Of a stretch of 27,050 bases of DNA, positions 1 to 12,767 are shown piece by piece. The DNA is taken from the IMG/VR virus record IMGVR_UViG_3300020469_000214, positions 1-27,050 of that record; one strand, given 5' to 3'. The DNA is from a virus. Numbering within the stretch: the first letter of the stretch is position 1; every line of letters starts with the position of its first letter. The notes under the pieces were generated by a model. The model saw only the letters and a program-made list of their open reading frames with translations, was not told the origin of the DNA and did no database searches. The translations under genes were made by a program, and so were the position numbers.

Positions 1-1790
1 TGTTGTTCGGCAATTGCCGCCGGAATTCCGGCCGTGTCCGCTTTTATTGCGTTTGTGATTGGCGTCATTATTCCGCCGGATCCTAAATCTACAACGCTAG
101 AAACAGCGCCACGGCCACCGCCACCGGCTCCGCTTGTTGTTATATCACCACCACCGGCCGCCGCTTGTCCGCTATCACTTGCCGGAACAACCTCAACCGG
201 AACCGTAATTTTTGGAATTTCCGCCTTCGCTTGTTCTTCTAAAACTGATTTGCGTTCCTTTAATAAAGCAATTTCATTTTTTAAACGTTCGTTTCTTGAC
301 TTTTGCGCGCCTATTGAATAACGACGTTTTGCTTCTAATGTGTCCATATAGGCTAATTCTTCTTCAGCAGCTTTTAAACGTTCGTCAATTGCCTTTGTGT
401 CCAATTGCGCAACTGACGCCGCCGTCGCTTCTTTTTGGGCCTTTGAATAACTATATAAAGCCGCAACAACCAACGCAATCGCGCTTGCGATTGCAATTAT
501 TGGATTTGCTGCCATTGCCATTGTTAAAACTCGAAATCCGGTTGCGGCAATTGTTAGAATTGGACCTAATGCGGTGATCCCGGTCATTAATTTGCCGAAT
601 ATAATAAGCAAAGGGCCGGCCGCCGCTAAAATTGCAGTAAATGTCAAAACAATTTTTTGAGTTTGTGGCGATAAATTTTTAAATCTATCTGCTAAACCTT
701 TGACAAATTCCGACAATTTTGTAACGGCTGTTATTACCGCAGGCAAAACAATTTGACCAATTTCTAACAAAGCGTTTTTTACTGTTGCCATTCCTTGAGC
801 AAATTTAAATGATGCGGATTCCGATGTTTTTTGAAATGCTTCGTCGGTTGCGCCAAGTGTGTTACCTAATGCCTCAAATATCTTTTGATTGTCCGCGGCC
901 CCTTTTCCGGTCAAATCCAAAACCCCTTTAAGCGCTCGAATGTTTGGAAAAATTGCCGTCGCGTCCATTCCGGTTGCCTTCAAACGTGCGGATAAATCCA
1001 TTAATGTCGGCATTAAACCCTTTTCGGCTAATGATTTGGAAATTTGTTCTTGCGACGTTCCAAGGGCCAACATAGCTTCGGCGCTTTGTTGTGTTGGTTT
1101 TTTTATTGACGCTAAAATCGCGGTCAATTGAGTTGCACCAACCGCCGCGTTTGTTCCGGTCCTTGACATTGCAGCCAATGCCGCGCCGACTTCATCAAAT
1201 CCAACGCCCATATTTGACGCGATTGGAATAACGCCCCCCATTGCGCCGGCTAATTCGGACGCTTCCAATTTACCTTCGCGGACCGAAGCAACCAAAATGT
1301 CGGTTGCGCCGGTTGCGTTCAAATTTTCAACGCCATAAGCGTTCATGGCCGACGTTGCCAAATCGGCAATTGTTTTTGTTTCGCCCAATCCAACCGCAGC
1401 AGCTTTTAAAGACGCGTTTAATGTGTCGGTTGCGTCGGCGCCCCTCAAACCGGCGGACGTAATGAAAAACAATGCTTCGCCGGCCTCGTTTGCGCTTCGG
1501 CCGGTTGCTGTTGCCATTGTTTTTGCGGCTTCGCCCATTTTTGCCACTTCATTTGCAGCAATACCCACCAATGATTCAATTTGTGTCATTGATTTATCAA
1601 AATCCAATGCTAATTTTGTTGCAGCAGTACCGGCGGCAACAAGCGGCAACGTCAAACTTGTTGACATTGATTTTCCAACGCTTTGCATTTTACCGCCAAA
1701 CGCTTGCAATTTTGAGGAAGCGCTTGAAAGTGCGTTTTTAAGTTTCGACGAATCGCCGGTAATATTTATTTTGAGATTTGATTCGGCCAT
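1..1790 (-). CDS. Phage tail tape measure protein, N-terminal part (runs off left edge)
   Basis: The tape measure protein sets tail length and forms the tail-lumen scaffold. The ATG is at 1788-1790 (MAESNLKINITGDSSK) and 596 codons are open to the edge with no stop. Residues about 8-35 have the repeated K-L-x-x-A/F-G-x-x-M-x-x-V-G-K pattern typical of TP901-type tape measures, followed by a long alanine-rich helical region. Hydrophobic segments lie at about residues 375-455, then a charged coiled-coil stretch and a Gly/Ser-rich segment near the edge. It follows the tail chaperone genes, which is the standard position. A TATTTTTG box lies 18 bp upstream of the start. The family call is secure; total length is unknown. 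Confidence 0.93.
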   Translation of the reverse strand, partial: MAESNLKINITGDSSKLKNALSSASSKLQAFGGKMQSVGKSMSTSLTLPLVAAGTAATKLALDFDKSMTQIESLVGIAANEVAKMGEAAKTMATATGRSANEAGEALFFITSAGLRGADATDTLNASLKAAAVGLGETKTIADLATSAMNAYGVENLNATGATDILVASVREGKLEASELAGAMGGVIPIASNMGVGFDEVGAALAAMSRTGTNAAVGATQLTAILASIKKPTQQSAEAMLALGTSQEQISKSLAEKGLMPTLMDLSARLKATGMDATAIFPNIRALKGVLDLTGKGAADNQKIFEALGNTLGATDEAFQKTSESASFKFAQGMATVKNALLEIGQIVLPAVITAVTKLSEFVKGLADRFKNLSPQTQKIVLTFTAILAAAGPLLIIFGKLMTGITALGPILTIAATGFRVLTMAMAANPIIAIASAIALVVAALYSYSKAQKEATAASVAQLDTKAIDERLKAAEEELAYMDTLEAKRRYSIGAQKSRNERLKNEIALLKERKSVLEEQAKAEIPKITVPVEVVPASDSGQAAAGGGDITTSGAGGGGRGAVSSVVDLGSGGIMTPITNAIKADTAGIPAAIAEQ

Positions 1791-1832: not shown

Positions 1833-2168
1833 TTATTTTAAGGTTTTTTTATTGGTCATTTGTTTGACTTTGTTTTCAAACGCCAACATTTGTTCGCGTG
1901 TTGATTTTGGTTTGTCGCGATTTTCTTTGCGTTTTTTATCATTCGGTAATTGAAACAATTGTTCGGGTTTTAACATTTGCGAACGTTTTTGACATTGCAC
2001 ATTGTGAACCATTGCCGCCAAATATCGCGTTTGTTCCCATTGCAAATTTATATTATTGTGATAATGTTCGGCGATCAATCCATTTTCACGCCAGGTTTGC
2101 CGCCAAAAATCATCGGGTTTAATGCCAATCAATCCGATATAATAATCGGTCAAACTCTCAAAATCTAT
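1833..2168 (-). CDS. Tail assembly chaperone, frameshift extension (gpT-like part)
   Basis: This is the second reading frame of the tail assembly chaperone pair, like the T part of lambda gpG-T, which recruits tail tube protein onto the tape measure. The frame is entered by a -1 slip at 2168-2174; the first extension codons give I-D-F-E-S-L-T-D-Y-Y and continue to the stop at 1833 (about 111 residues). The frame has no ATG near its beginning; the only start-like codon is a TTG at 2151-2153, past the slip point, so independent initiation is possible but less attractive. It has a W/Y-rich first half (DDFWRQTWRENG) and a Lys/Arg-rich C-terminus. Its place between gpG-like ORF and tape measure fits. 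The fused product would be about 235 aa. Confidence 0.8.
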   Translation of the reverse strand: MDFESLTDYYIGLIGIKPDDFWRQTWRENGLIAEHYHNNINLQWEQTRYLAAMVHNVQCQKRSQMLKPEQLFQLPNDKKRKENRDKPKSTREQMLAFENKVKQMTNKKTLK

Positions 2169-2539
2169 TTTTTTGACGGCTTCACCTTTGCCGGTTTGAC
2201 GGCTTGTTGATTTAAAGAGTTGCCCAAAATTTTGGATTCTAACATTGTGTTGACAATTTCATTTATTGAATCCGGTTGCAAATCGTCCAACCAAGTGCCA
2301 ACTGTGAAAATATTATAATCAACATTTTTTCCGTTCTCTTGATCGTTTGCAAGTATTGCCGAATAAATAAGCGCGCGCAATCCTTTTATTGATATACCGT
2401 TTTCAAACGCGCTTCCAATGTCTTGAAGTGAAATCCCCATTTGTTCCGTGAATTCGGACCAAAAATTCATTGAAAAATGTAATGTTCTTTTTTTTCCACC
2501 GACATTGATGTCAATGAAACCTTTGTTTTTGTTTGCCAT
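2165..2539 (-). CDS. Tail assembly chaperone (gpG-like), 124 aa
   Basis: This small soluble protein lies between the tail tube and tape measure genes. By position and size it is the tail assembly chaperone, which binds the tape measure during tail assembly. It starts with ATG at 2537-2539 (MANKNKGFIDINVGGKKR), has a helical core with a conserved-looking WSEFTEQMGISL segment, and ends in a Lys/Pro/Ala tail before the TAG stop. The last sense codons are tca aaa aaa followed by tag, so the ribosome meets a heptamer suited to a -1 slip just before termination. It is the first gene after the terminator at 2566-2598, so it is either expressed by read-through or has its own unseen promoter. Assignment is by position and size more than by motif. 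Confidence 0.82.
   Translation of the reverse strand: MANKNKGFIDINVGGKKRTLHFSMNFWSEFTEQMGISLQDIGSAFENGISIKGLRALIYSAILANDQENGKNVDYNIFTVGTWLDDLQPDSINEIVNTMLESKILGNSLNQQAVKPAKVKPSKK
2168..2174 (-). promoter_or_regulatory. Programmed -1 ribosomal frameshift slippery heptamer A AAA AAA
   Basis: The minus strand reads tcA AAA AAA tag in the zero frame, an X XXY YYZ heptamer whose seven A's end one base before the stop. A -1 slip moves reading exactly into the frame that runs to 1833. An SD-like AAAGGTGA lies about 8-14 nt upstream and could stimulate the shift. A weak 5-bp hairpin (CCGAT/ATCGG) starts 18 nt downstream, further than usual for a stimulator. Frameshifting at this gene position is widely conserved in long-tailed phages. 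Confidence 0.85.
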
Positions 2540-2620: not shown

Positions 2621-3028
2621 TTAGTTTGTGCTTTTTACGATTGCGCCGGTAATAATAAGCGAACCGGAATAAGTGACGGCCGCTTCCATTTCGCCGGACA
2701 TTTCAACCGATGTCAAAAAAGCGTCAGCGGTATAAATTGAATCGCCACTTTCGGCGGTTCCAAATACACAAGTTAATTTTGTTCTGTTTAATAGATTGTC
2801 CGCGGCTTGTATTGCGTTGAATGAATCATCATAAGCAATTAAACCTTCAAATGAAATTTCGCCGCCTTTTATGCCGCCGATATATTCCGAAAATCCGGCC
2901 GAATCTTTTGTTGTTGCCTCTGGCGTGTCTAATGATAAAGACAGCGAACAAGATGTCGTATGTCCGACAGTTGTTCCGCCAATTTTTAAAAGTAAGTTTG
3001 TCCCGTTAAAAACTCCCGTTGTTGCCAT
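2621..3028 (-). CDS. Major tail tube protein (TP901-1 type)
   Basis: This 135-aa protein polymerises into the tail tube. The sequence has the features of TP901-1-type major tail proteins: an N-terminal MATTGVFNGTNLLLKIGGTT beta segment, the serine-rich CSLSLSLDTPEATTKDSAGF stretch, then IGGIKGGEISFEGL, and a C-terminal VTYSGSLIITG strand. Its length is usual for this family. It lies between the fibre genes and the tail chaperones and is followed at once by a strong terminator. A TATATTTA motif sits 23-42 bp upstream of the ATG, so it may be an independent high-level transcription unit. Confidence 0.9.
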   Translation of the reverse strand: MATTGVFNGTNLLLKIGGTTVGHTTSCSLSLSLDTPEATTKDSAGFSEYIGGIKGGEISFEGLIAYDDSFNAIQAADNLLNRTKLTCVFGTAESGDSIYTADAFLTSVEMSGEMEAAVTYSGSLIITGAIVKSTN

Positions 3029-3453: not shown

Positions 3454-4740
3454 TTATATAGTTGTTAATGTTGTTAATTCGCTTGTTGTCAATGTTTCGT
3501 CAAAAATTGCGTGCGTGAAAACATCGCCGTTCAATTTGCCGTTTGCAATTCCAAAATCGGACGCAATCGCTTCGCCATTTAATACGTCAAAATTTCCGGT
3601 CACGGTTCCGGTTTTTATTTGTGATCCATTTAAAAATATTAAAAACTCATTGCCAAACAAACGGACCGCCAATTTATTTTGTTGGAAAAATGGTATTAAA
3701 TTTTCACTTGTTGTTATCAAAGTATTTGACGAACCATTGTTTGAAGTTGCCAAAATTAATACAAAATAATTTGTTCCGGATTTATACGATCTTAATTTTA
3801 AAGTTTTTGACGAATTAGAATTTTTAATACTTAATAAATCAATAAAATTATCATCGTAAGAATTGACCTTAAAATCCAAATAAAACGTCGCGTCGGCGCC
3901 TAATGTAAAAGTTGAAGTATTAATACAATCATCAAAATTTCGTGAAACCGCAATATTTTCCGTTTTAATATATGACGTTGCGCCGACCCCTTTTTCGACT
4001 TGACAGCCAAATAAATAAACAAACGATGTTGACGTCGAATTGGTTGAATCAACGGTCCCGTCGGACGCACGGGGTGAAAATAAACTTATTATTGACGCGT
4101 CGGCGTCTGTTGTGTATTCTATTTGTAAACGAAACCACCCGTCGCCGTATTCCTCAACCTTTGTTCGGCCGGCTGTAAATGTCCCGGTTGCGTCATATTG
4201 ATATATTTGTTTAGTGCTAAATCTGAATCGGGCGTCAACGCGGTTTGGAAAAACGCCTTGAGCGCGGATTGCAAAGTAATCGCCTTCGCCTTGTTTGACA
4301 AAAACCGATGTTGTCATTTGCATTGCGGCGGCTGACGGTTTTGCTGCAGCGTCACGAATGTAAGCGGCGGACGTTGCGGTCCTTAAAATTTTGTCGGCTG
4401 TTGTTGTTCCTTTTGGCGATGTTATTTGATTTGCGGTAACGGTAACGGCCAACGCGTCGGTTGTCCACGCGGAGTTTTCAAACTCTTCGGATCTTATTTG
4501 TAAATTTGCCCGGGTCTGTTCAATAAGTAATGACGGACAACCGTTGTTGTGATGATTCAAACGCGGTATATTTGCGGCCTTTGTTTCAATAATACCACTA
4601 ACATTTTGTCTTGTTGCGTCGTCACCAACGCGCGCGAATGTAAAATCAAAACCGCCGGCGCTTGGAAAAATAGAATATAATTTTGTCGCCTTATATCCCG
4701 AAGGAATCAATAAAAATTTTGCTTTGTCTAAAATTGTCAT
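3454..4740 (-). CDS. LamG/lectin-like fibre protein 1, 428 aa
   Basis: This is a predicted virion surface protein of the concanavalin-A-like/LamG type, likely to bind host-surface glycans. Residues 1-75 form a short N-terminal module (TILDKAKFLLIPSGYK, then GGFDFTFARVGDDATRQN and SLLIEQTRANL) shared with the next gene upstream. Two beta-rich domains follow (about 80-255 and 265-425); the second ends in a LamG-like strand, DVFTHAIFDETLTTSELTTL. There is no signal peptide. Upstream is a paralogue (4783-6039), so this is a tandem duplication that has diverged. Specific glycan and attachment site on the particle are unknown. Confidence 0.8.
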   Translation of the reverse strand: MTILDKAKFLLIPSGYKATKLYSIFPSAGGFDFTFARVGDDATRQNVSGIIETKAANIPRLNHHNNGCPSLLIEQTRANLQIRSEEFENSAWTTDALAVTVTANQITSPKGTTTADKILRTATSAAYIRDAAAKPSAAAMQMTTSVFVKQGEGDYFAIRAQGVFPNRVDARFRFSTKQIYQYDATGTFTAGRTKVEEYGDGWFRLQIEYTTDADASIISLFSPRASDGTVDSTNSTSTSFVYLFGCQVEKGVGATSYIKTENIAVSRNFDDCINTSTFTLGADATFYLDFKVNSYDDNFIDLLSIKNSNSSKTLKLRSYKSGTNYFVLILATSNNGSSNTLITTSENLIPFFQQNKLAVRLFGNEFLIFLNGSQIKTGTVTGNFDVLNGEAIASDFGIANGKLNGDVFTHAIFDETLTTSELTTLTTI

Positions 4741-4782: not shown

Positions 4783-6039
4783 TTATGAGGTTAAGGCAAT
4801 CAATTCCGCATCTGTTAAAGCCTCTTTGAATACTGCAACACATTTTACTTTGCCTTCAAAATCCCCACCTGCACCGCCTCTTTTTAGATTTAAAATTTGT
4901 AAAGATTCTGAAAAGGTAAAACTAGAGGTGTTAGAAAAAACTTCAGAACCATTTACAAAACATTTAATATCCCCGCTTTTATATTTTATAGCTGCTTTTG
5001 CAAATTGTGTTCTATCTGTTAAGGTTGTGGCTTGTAAAAAATTTGATGAATCATTTGAAGTTACTCTAAATTGTAATTTGTTGCTTCCAGTCGAGTAAAG
5101 TATATCGACCGAATTGTTATTATTGTTTGAATTTATTGAAATATGTCTCGCAATACTATCATTTGCCAATGCTGCTATCTCTGCATATAAAACCCCTTCT
5201 GTTGAGTTTATAAGGCTTGTATCTCCGCTGTTGTTTGCTTCTTCTTTGTTACGGGTCACAGTGCTTCCGCTTGTGGGGATATATGAGGTTGGAAAAGATT
5301 GCTCTTCTGATTGCATACCCCAAAGTAAAATTGATTGATTTCCGTTTCTTAAAATTGATGTTTGGTTTGAATCGTTGCAAATATTAAATAAAACGGCCCC
5401 GACTAAATCTGTTGTTGTGTTCATGGTGACCGAACATTTATACCACCCATTCCCAAAGTCTTCAATTGTTGATTGTGCGGTTCCGGATTTTGTGCCATTA
5501 GCTAAATTGAAAAATGCCGCGCGACCATTATCAAAACCCGTCATGTTGATCCTCAAAACATTCGCGCCGTCTTTTTTTGCGAAAACTGAAATTGTGGAAT
5601 CCGTTGCGGAAGTCAAATTTGTTGAAAAAAAGTTTATAGCTATGCTACCACTTGAACCGTCATTATTGTCAAGTAGTTTTTGAGCTGTATTAGTTCCGTC
5701 TGGTGCGGTGCCTTGGTTTGCACTCAATACGGCACCAGTCAAACTTGGGTTGCCACTACCACCAAAAATATCACCTTGCGAAAAGTCATTTGAATAAGTT
5801 GCCGTATTTGTTGAGGCCGGTTCCAATAAAATATGACCGGTTCCTCCTAAAAAATCAATCCTTGGCAAACCACTTGCAACATTTTGGATCAAGCCATTAG
5901 GGCCAACCCGGGTTGCTGTTGTTGCGCGTGTGAAATCAAAATCGCCGGTTGCCGTGTTTGGTTTTATGCAATGCAAATCGCCGCTTGAATATGCCGTCGG
6001 TGTTAATAAAATGCTTGCTTTGTCTAATAAATTGCTCAT
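4783..6039 (-). CDS. LamG/lectin-like fibre protein 2, 418 aa
   Basis: This is a paralogue of the 3454-4740 product and likely a second receptor-binding or decoration protein. The N-terminal module matches it: LLDKASILLTPTAYSSGDLH, then GDFDFTRATTATRVGPNGLI and GTGHILLEPASTNTATYSNDF. It is followed by a carbohydrate-binding-module-like beta domain (about 85-265, with DFGNGWYKCSVTM) and a C-terminal LamG-like domain (about 280-418, with KYKSGDIKCFVNGSEVF and CVAVFKEALTDAELIAL). The ATG overlaps the stop of the preceding 51-aa gene (ATGA), implying translational coupling. Its DNA has fewer of the cgg/gcc-rich codons seen in neighbouring structural genes, which hints at later acquisition or exchange. 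Confidence 0.82.
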   Translation of the reverse strand: MSNLLDKASILLTPTAYSSGDLHCIKPNTATGDFDFTRATTATRVGPNGLIQNVASGLPRIDFLGGTGHILLEPASTNTATYSNDFSQGDIFGGSGNPSLTGAVLSANQGTAPDGTNTAQKLLDNNDGSSGSIAINFFSTNLTSATDSTISVFAKKDGANVLRINMTGFDNGRAAFFNLANGTKSGTAQSTIEDFGNGWYKCSVTMNTTTDLVGAVLFNICNDSNQTSILRNGNQSILLWGMQSEEQSFPTSYIPTSGSTVTRNKEEANNSGDTSLINSTEGVLYAEIAALANDSIARHISINSNNNNNSVDILYSTGSNKLQFRVTSNDSSNFLQATTLTDRTQFAKAAIKYKSGDIKCFVNGSEVFSNTSSFTFSESLQILNLKRGGAGGDFEGKVKCVAVFKEALTDAELIALTS

Positions 6040-12077: not shown

Positions 12078-12767
12078 TTATTTTTTTATGGAGTTAATAA
12101 TATAATTTAAGATTTCGGAATCATTGTTTTTTGCTTCAACATTCGGCAAAGTGATTTCATCAACCGGCTTTGTGAATTCAACAAATAATGATTTTAGTTT
12201 TAATAATTCCGCTTCGATTGCAAATCCCATTTCGTCGGAAATTGAACCCTTGCGAATTAGTTTACATAAATTGTCGTATCTCTTTGACAATTTATTGACG
12301 TCAATATTTCCTTTAACGTCTAAAATTTTTGCTTGATCATTAGCGGCTAAAGTAACGGCGCTAACTTCATACAATTTAACCTCTGTAATTTCGCGGTAAT
12401 TGTCTTTATTTTGTTTTTGAATTGGCATAATACCGACAGAATTTTCGGTAATGACGCCGGTTTTCATTAATTCAACAACGTCCATTCCCAATTGTGTTTT
12501 GGCAATTTCTGCGGTGAATACCAAACCCTTATCGTCTTCATATAATTCAACCATTTTTCCAATCGGTTGATTCATGTCGTGTTGATATAAGTATTTGACG
12601 CGGTCGCCATTTTCGGCGATTGTCTTTTTATATGCACCTTTCATAATTACGTCATTGTCGGAATCTTTGTTTCCGAAATAACTTCCATAACCTTTAATTA
12701 TTCCGGCCTTTTCGTCGGCATCAATTAATTCACCAACGGGCGCCGCTTTATATAGAATCGTGTTCAT
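12078..12767 (-). CDS. Prohead maturation protease, HK97 U35 type, 229 aa
   Basis: This serine protease cleaves the capsid delta domain during head maturation. The start region ends in GIIKGYGSYFGNKDSDNDVI; the catalytic His is His63 in YLYQHDMNQPIG and the Ser is Ser110 in GVITENSVGIMPI, followed by EVKLYEVSAVTLAAN, all typical for the family. The C-terminal 75 residues are helical and probably interact with the scaffold. It is 3 bp from the capsid gene. A promoter-like motif sits just before the ATG. Confidence 0.93.
   Translation of the reverse strand: MNTILYKAAPVGELIDADEKAGIIKGYGSYFGNKDSDNDVIMKGAYKKTIAENGDRVKYLYQHDMNQPIGKMVELYEDDKGLVFTAEIAKTQLGMDVVELMKTGVITENSVGIMPIQKQNKDNYREITEVKLYEVSAVTLAANDQAKILDVKGNIDVNKLSKRYDNLCKLIRKGSISDEMGFAIEAELLKLKSLFVEFTKPVDEITLPNVEAKNNDSEILNYIINSIKK

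Follow-up and report, generated by a model that had tools for sequence, protein, structure and literature searches.

Overlapping tail frames and their relatives

We analysed 27,050 nt of viral DNA (IMG/VR virus record IMGVR_UViG_3300020469_000214, positions 1 to 27,050; hereafter the window), whose minus strand carries two overlapping open reading frames (ORFs) in a -1 relation, flanked by tail tube and tape measure genes as in the lambda G/GT type of tail assembly chaperone (Table 1). The first (0) frame encodes a 124-aa protein and ends with TCA AAA AAA TAG, the stop codon lying at 2165-2167 and a run of seven adenines (A7) standing in phase directly before it. The -1 frame has no stop from 91 nt 5' of the 0-frame stop down to its own TAA at 1833-1835; its first ATG is found 155 nt past the 0-frame stop, while a TTG (2153) lies 14 nt past it. 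An initial annotation had noted the A7 at the stop, the uninterrupted -1 frame without a nearby ATG and the location between tail tube and tape measure, all of which are borne out, the last by Pfam matches to Phage_tail_2 and PhageMin_Tail. From these it had proposed a programmed -1 frameshift at the A7. As described below, comparison with relatives strongly supports the frameshift itself and makes another slip site, upstream of the A7, the likely one.

Relatives were collected by protein searches that gave 80 loci for the first frame and 80 for the second, with further loci obtained by distant queries. These loci overlap, one contig often being retrieved repeatedly, and removal of identical sequences left 128 distinct gene pairs, which in the slip-site counts are 127 close relatives plus the distant locus L186. 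The second frame stands in the -1 relation to the first in 262/262 loci that hold both parts and in 76 more distant loci; it is homologous and open in all relatives, with a start codon that is not conserved. Since the relation is the same everywhere and no relative needs a separate start, the joining of the two chaperone frames by -1 frameshifting is strongly supported on comparative grounds.

A conserved slip core upstream of the A7 run

What the relatives share is a slip core, NNA_AAG, located 18 nt (sometimes 21) 5' of the 0-frame stop. Among the 128 distinct pairs it reads GGGAAAG in 95, GGCAAAG in 20, AGCAAAG in 5, CGCAAAG in 5, and once each GGTAAAG (GTA_AAG), AAAAAAG and GGGAAAC (L186), which gives a total of 30 N_GCA_AAG among the close relatives, the window included. 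The tetramer A_AAG is present in 127/127 close relatives, though AAG makes up 15% of lysine codons. All 95 pairs with GGGAAAG have G as the last base of the codon preceding GGA, even though six amino acids are represented at that codon, which shows selection on the heptamer as a nucleotide sequence. The base before GCA is free in the GCA group (G, A or C), as expected if A_AAG alone matters there. With expected rates drawn from outside the shift region, the slip codons show 3 synonymous changes against 32.9 expected and the dual-coded stretch 9 against 93.8.

In the window, the conserved slip position (GGCAAAG) holds no canonical X_XXY_YYZ heptamer, and the canonical A_AAA_AAA is 18 nt further on. 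The frame is kept in about 30 loci whose N_GCA_AAG comes with neither a canonical heptamer nor an A7 there. Most relatives have TCA AAG AAA TAA at the stop, which is not slippery, and among close relatives the A7 is restricted to the window lineage and to L039, L040, L042 and L055, with A6G in the sister clade. The initial annotation had asked whether the A7 is conserved in related phages and had taken its loss without loss of the downstream frame as evidence against its own proposal; such loss is what we observed. A second A_AAG (TCA_AAG) lies within the stem arm described below in many relatives and is lost in L163, L166 and L167 (TCA AGG), again with the frame kept. As a separate observation, in L178, L184, L189 and L192 the P-site GCA follows AAC, and an A_AAA_AAC is found nearby upstream.

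A long-range stem follows the slip core

Shortly after the slip core begins an 11-bp stem that encloses a 60-nt loop and can form in every close relative (Table 1). RNAalifold independently recovers this stem, and the window RNA folds at -24.1 kcal/mol with a z-score of -3.07. Codons 26-29 after the slip, which make up the 3' arm (GAT TTT TGG CGG), have 0 synonymous changes against 42.9 expected, while the codons on either side change at a normal rate (163 against 155.9 for codons 15-25 and 72 against 72.6 for codons 30-35). The arginine of the 3' arm is CGG in 91/91, a codon that accounts for 6.4% of arginine codons elsewhere, whereas the arginine four codons on uses all six. The initial annotation, which reported only a weak hairpin downstream, had missed this stem, which begins before the A7 and reaches 2099 with the end of its 3' arm; the hairpin it had seen is the one within the loop, at most an accessory element. 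We also noticed that codons 8-14 after the slip (2124-2147, to ...TTG ACC GAT), outside the outer stem, show 40 synonymous changes against 94.2 expected, of which the inner hairpin explains only a part.

Stem changes in the window clade are one-sided, and covariation shuffles are uninformative there, the 3' arm being invariant; proof of pairing was therefore taken from distant relatives. In these, GGGAAAG at -22 or -7 is followed by 5-6 nt and then by a 7-bp stem with a 36- or 40-nt loop, with compensatory changes on both sides (GC to CG, AU to GC, CG to UA). In the first distant group 100% of cells are paired, 3/7 pairs have changed on both sides and covariation is 0.331 against 0.190 (0/500 shuffles), while in the second 93.5% of cells are paired and covariation exceeds all 500 shuffles. 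The shuffles ignore relatedness; as a control, sliding the partner by one base lowers pairing to 34-51%. An Rfam search gave no match.

The place of the stem bears directly on the choice between the two sites. The best helix in the window after GGCAAAG has -13.7 kcal/mol and that after the A7 -2.0 kcal/mol, random positions having a mean of -4.3 kcal/mol. Structure 5-9 nt 3' of the slip site is thus found for GGCAAAG, with the stem at 5 nt, and not for the A7.

Table 1. Features of the frameshift locus and its flanking genes, in window coordinates.
Feature	Position	Strand	Remarks
Tape measure gene (downstream; truncated at the edge of the window)	3..1790	-	Pfam PhageMin_Tail, E 2.3e-25; PHROG 1533 tape measure, E 2.2e-71
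-1 frame (gpT-like domain)	1833..2186	-	Post-slip reading from codon GGT; TAA 1833-1835; fusion of 235 aa predicted
Stem 3' arm UUUUUGGCGGC	2099..2109	-	No synonymous changes; codons 26-29 after the slip
Inner hairpin CCGAU/AUCGG in the 60-nt loop	2134..2149	-	97% of cells paired, some rows broken
0-frame putative tail assembly chaperone (gpG-like), 124 aa	2165..2539	-	ORF, PHROG 2115 and fold matches
A7 at the stop, possible auxiliary slip site	2168..2174	-	In phase, A_AAA_AAA; partly within the 5' arm of the stem, at its 3' end
Stem 5' arm GCCGUCAAAAA	2170..2180	-	11 bp in 127/127; 10 bp counted in 63/63 distinct rows
Spacer, slip site to stem	2181..2185	-	Constant at 5 nt across the 127 close relatives, with varying sequence
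Most likely slip site GGCAAAG, read G_GCA_AAG	2186..2192	-	A_AAG tetramer 2186-2189; homologous to the relatives' GGGAAAG
Major tail tube protein gene, upstream	2621..3028	-	Pfam Phage_tail_2, E 3.1e-13

Proposed slippage at the upstream tetramer and its alternatives

Altogether, we regard it as likely that the locus encodes a lambda G/GT-type chaperone by programmed -1 frameshifting, with the slip at the upstream A_AAG and the stem as its stimulator. The upstream site is favoured because the stem lies at the canonical distance from GGCAAAG, while a ribosome decoding the A7 would already have opened it and would meet no helix beyond -2.0 kcal/mol. In the proposed mechanism, the ribosome, with GCA and AAG in its P and A sites, would be held up by the 11-bp stem (2170-2180 with 2099-2109); tRNA-Lys would re-pair from AAG to AAA and reading would continue in the -1 frame (...PAK-GEAVKKIDFESL...). 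The 235-aa fusion would then be made alongside the 124-aa chaperone, with the predicted junction ...PAKGEAVKKIDFESL..., and by analogy with lambda it would link the tape measure to the tail tube protein. The A7 would be chiefly stem-arm sequence and may add some slippage. In Escherichia coli A_AAG leads the hierarchy of tetramers, which range from 0.26 to 5.6% with the IS3 pseudoknot, A_AAG giving up to 5.6%, against about 0.15% without a stimulator (PMC4066793), and the ratio required in lambda is only about 30:1, or about 1 in 30 (PMC5009743); other efficiencies may apply in Bacteroidetes.

Several points weigh against this reading. The change from GGA to GCA breaks re-pairing in the P site, so that the tetramer should be weaker than GGGAAAG. 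An in-phase heptamer, the A7, lies 18 nt downstream within the same open stretch. Within the window clade the stem shows no compensatory pair. Six distant relatives (L307, L309, L311, L339, L343 and L271) have an in-phase run of 8 to 10 A's at the stop, with neither GGGAAAG nor a strong stem. Finally, all support for the upstream slip is comparative.

One alternative is a -1 slip at the A7 just before the stop, as proposed in the initial annotation; GGCAAAG would be a dead relic of GGGAAAG after the signal moved downstream in this lineage through a two-site stage, and the predicted junction would then be ...PAKVKPSKKIDFESL... / VKPSKKIDFESL. KKIDFESL is common to the predicted products of both sites, which differ in the residues preceding KK. 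The A7 is in phase and kept in five contigs of the window lineage, a two-site stage does exist in the sister clade (GGGAAAG and A_AAA_AAG), and in the six distant relatives the -1 frame is open only from 10-13 nt before the stop, so that they must slip on the A-run. In the window, however, the conserved stem would already be melted when the A7 is decoded, the -1 frame between the two sites is open and identical or nearly so to that of the relatives, and N_GCA_AAG lineages devoid of A7 keep the frameshift. The run is also commonplace: counting both strands, A7 occurs 112 times in the window, less often than in shuffles, and 22 in-phase A_AAA_AAA at other coding positions in about 7,600 codons, one of them earlier in the chaperone gene (2489-2495). 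An internal control is provided by the gene at 12078-12767, in which an in-phase A_AAA_AAA (12081-12087) also stands directly before the stop; since that gene ends likewise, an A7 at the stop is not diagnostic, and by itself it is weak evidence for a frameshift. In E. coli the best heptamers are C_CCA_AAG, G_GGA_AAG and A_AAA_AAG (PMC4066793), and A_AAA_AAA is less shifty than the last of these (PMC5009743). We therefore consider slippage chiefly at the A7 unlikely; the run probably serves as an auxiliary site at most.

We think it highly improbable that the RNA polymerase, rather than the ribosome, slips on the A7. One added A would give A8 transcripts carrying the same downstream frame, the genome is AT-rich, and the A9-A10 runs at the stop of L307, L309, L311 and L343, with little stem, would suit such slippage. 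Seven A's is nevertheless short for transcriptional slippage, the run is broken (AAAGAAA or other) in most relatives with the frame kept, and the codon-phased slip core and the stem would be left unexplained. Transcriptional slippage as the family mechanism was dropped, no long homopolymer run being conserved. A-runs do seem able to serve as slip sites, and the mode used in the distant A-run relatives possibly includes transcriptional slippage.

Least credible is a separate downstream gene, initiated either at TTG 2153 or by ribosomes that re-initiate past the stop. A TTG does lie nearby in the window, and in Cellulophaga phage phi18:1 the related pair carries an annotation as two genes. In most relatives, however, TTA replaces this TTG, and their first ATG, GTG or TTG is often 89-155 nt inside the domain. 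Constraint on the -1 frame also extends upstream of every potential start, and slip core and stem would be left unexplained; separate initiation was dropped as the family mechanism.

A Shine-Dalgarno (SD)-like motif upstream of the slip region, AAAGGTGA, had also been pointed out; it is present in the window as described and is not conserved, reading AAAGATGA in L004 and L005 and AAAGCCGA or AAAGCGTC in most relatives. SD stimulation was accordingly dropped as a mechanism of the family.

Origin of the proposed tetramer signal

A DNA tree of 92 pairs, built without the junction by a quick search that leaves deep branches open, nests the window lineage (window, L002, L004 and L005) in the GGGAAAG clade, within a 14-row group (support 98) that also holds the sister clade carrying GGGAAAG together with A_AAA_AAG. 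Because of this nesting, GGG to GGC is, on the tree, a derived change and the lambda-type heptamer is lost in the window lineage, which would have come from ancestors with the full GGGAAAG and been left with the A_AAG tetramer alone at the site. A deeper, second set of GCA lineages has neither a heptamer at the slip position nor an A7 and keeps the frame. Whether these observations define a wider class is, in our judgement, evenly balanced: in a widespread marine, probably Bacteroidetes phage group, a natural N_GCA_AAG tetramer with a long-range stem (60-63-nt loop) would have arisen from, or alternated with, the lambda heptamer at least twice, the A-run in the window's stem arm would add a second slip site, and the ratio of products would be set by stem and tetramer, not by heptamer strength.

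Putative chaperone role, probable host and neighbouring genes

The first frame matches PHROG 2115 'tail protein' (E 4.7e-7). Its AlphaFold model, a beta hairpin followed by helices, is of low confidence (pLDDT 58.5) and, compared with viral folds, matches several tail assembly chaperones (E 7e-4 to 6e-2), phi18:2, and weakly N15 GT (E 0.08). There is no Pfam match and no credible PDB match by sequence or fold, the absence by fold not being evidence. The second frame gives an all-helical model (pLDDT 67), matches PHROGs of unknown function and, distantly, its counterpart in the tail genes of Cellulophaga phages. Together with place and architecture, these weak matches suggest a chaperone role.

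A tblastn search of annotated phages with the 124-aa protein gave no match, and a search with the tail tube protein gave a single weak one. The search of bacterial genomes returned two contigs of metagenome-assembled genomes, L185 (NYTN01000016.1) and L186 (NZGG01000029.1), labelled Rhodobiaceae and Gammaproteobacteria, which are probably mis-binned free phage. We set these host labels aside because the window terminase and primase are nearest to those of Phocaeicola, Riemerella, Cellulophaga, Tenacibaculum and Flavobacterium phages (the vB_RanS phage being, as we take it from the name, the Riemerella phage); to judge from these related phages, the host of this marine phage is probably a member of the Bacteroidetes.

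The start of the chaperone gene (2519-2539) has 29 synonymous changes against 72 expected, perhaps a start-region signal. Two neighbouring long ORFs, at 3454-4740 and 4783-6039, resemble each other in length and at their N-termini (LDKAKFLLIPSGYKA / LDKASILLTPTAYSSG) and look like a duplicated structural gene.

Comparison with known systems

The system is of a known kind, the chaperone frameshift of long-tailed phages, and its signal is a new variant. The usual rule, to take the X_XXY_YYZ nearest to the stop, probably picks the wrong motif here; comparing relatives brought out a long-range stem and, upstream of the A7, a degenerate site, which the single sequence had not revealed. The resulting pattern of slip core, 5-6 nt and stem may guide annotation, such genes being listed in databases as two hypothetical proteins. 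If the tetramer is used, the relatives offer a natural series (GGGAAAG, A_AAA_AAG and N_GCA_AAG, with and without A-runs) for testing the evolution of the frameshift ratio and of tail assembly. They would then also supply an example of a -1 signal read by Bacteroidetes ribosomes, a topic on which we found little in the literature searched, itself of partial coverage.

A related annotated case is gp56/gp57 of Cellulophaga phage phi18:1 (L082, 2592-3303 of NC_021790.1), whose frames lie between tail tube and tape measure and overlap in the -1 relation at TCA AAA AAA AAG. Its second frame has 29% identity to that of the window; it has A9G at the overlap and no matching stem, and it is annotated as two hypothetical proteins, though it is probably an unannotated chaperone frameshift.

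Compared with lambda G/GT (G_GGA_AAG), most relatives carry the identical heptamer GGGAAAG where the window has GGCAAAG, and the window adds a conserved long-range stem 5 nt downstream, no counterpart of which was found for lambda in the same partial literature. The A_AAG shift of IS3-type elements is alike in its tetramer slippage by tRNA-Lys and in its structured stimulator shortly downstream (PMC4066793). The window differs in being a phage gene of unrelated sequence and in that its stimulator looks like a simple stem whose 60-nt loop contains an inner hairpin; folding limited to nested structures detected no pseudoknot, and the codons just past the 3' arm are unconstrained. In the dnaX type (A_AAA_AAG with an upstream SD and a downstream hairpin), the A-run resembles the A7 of the window and the A6G of its sister clade, but the SD-like motif of the window lacks conservation among relatives, and the stem begins ahead of the A-run, not behind it.
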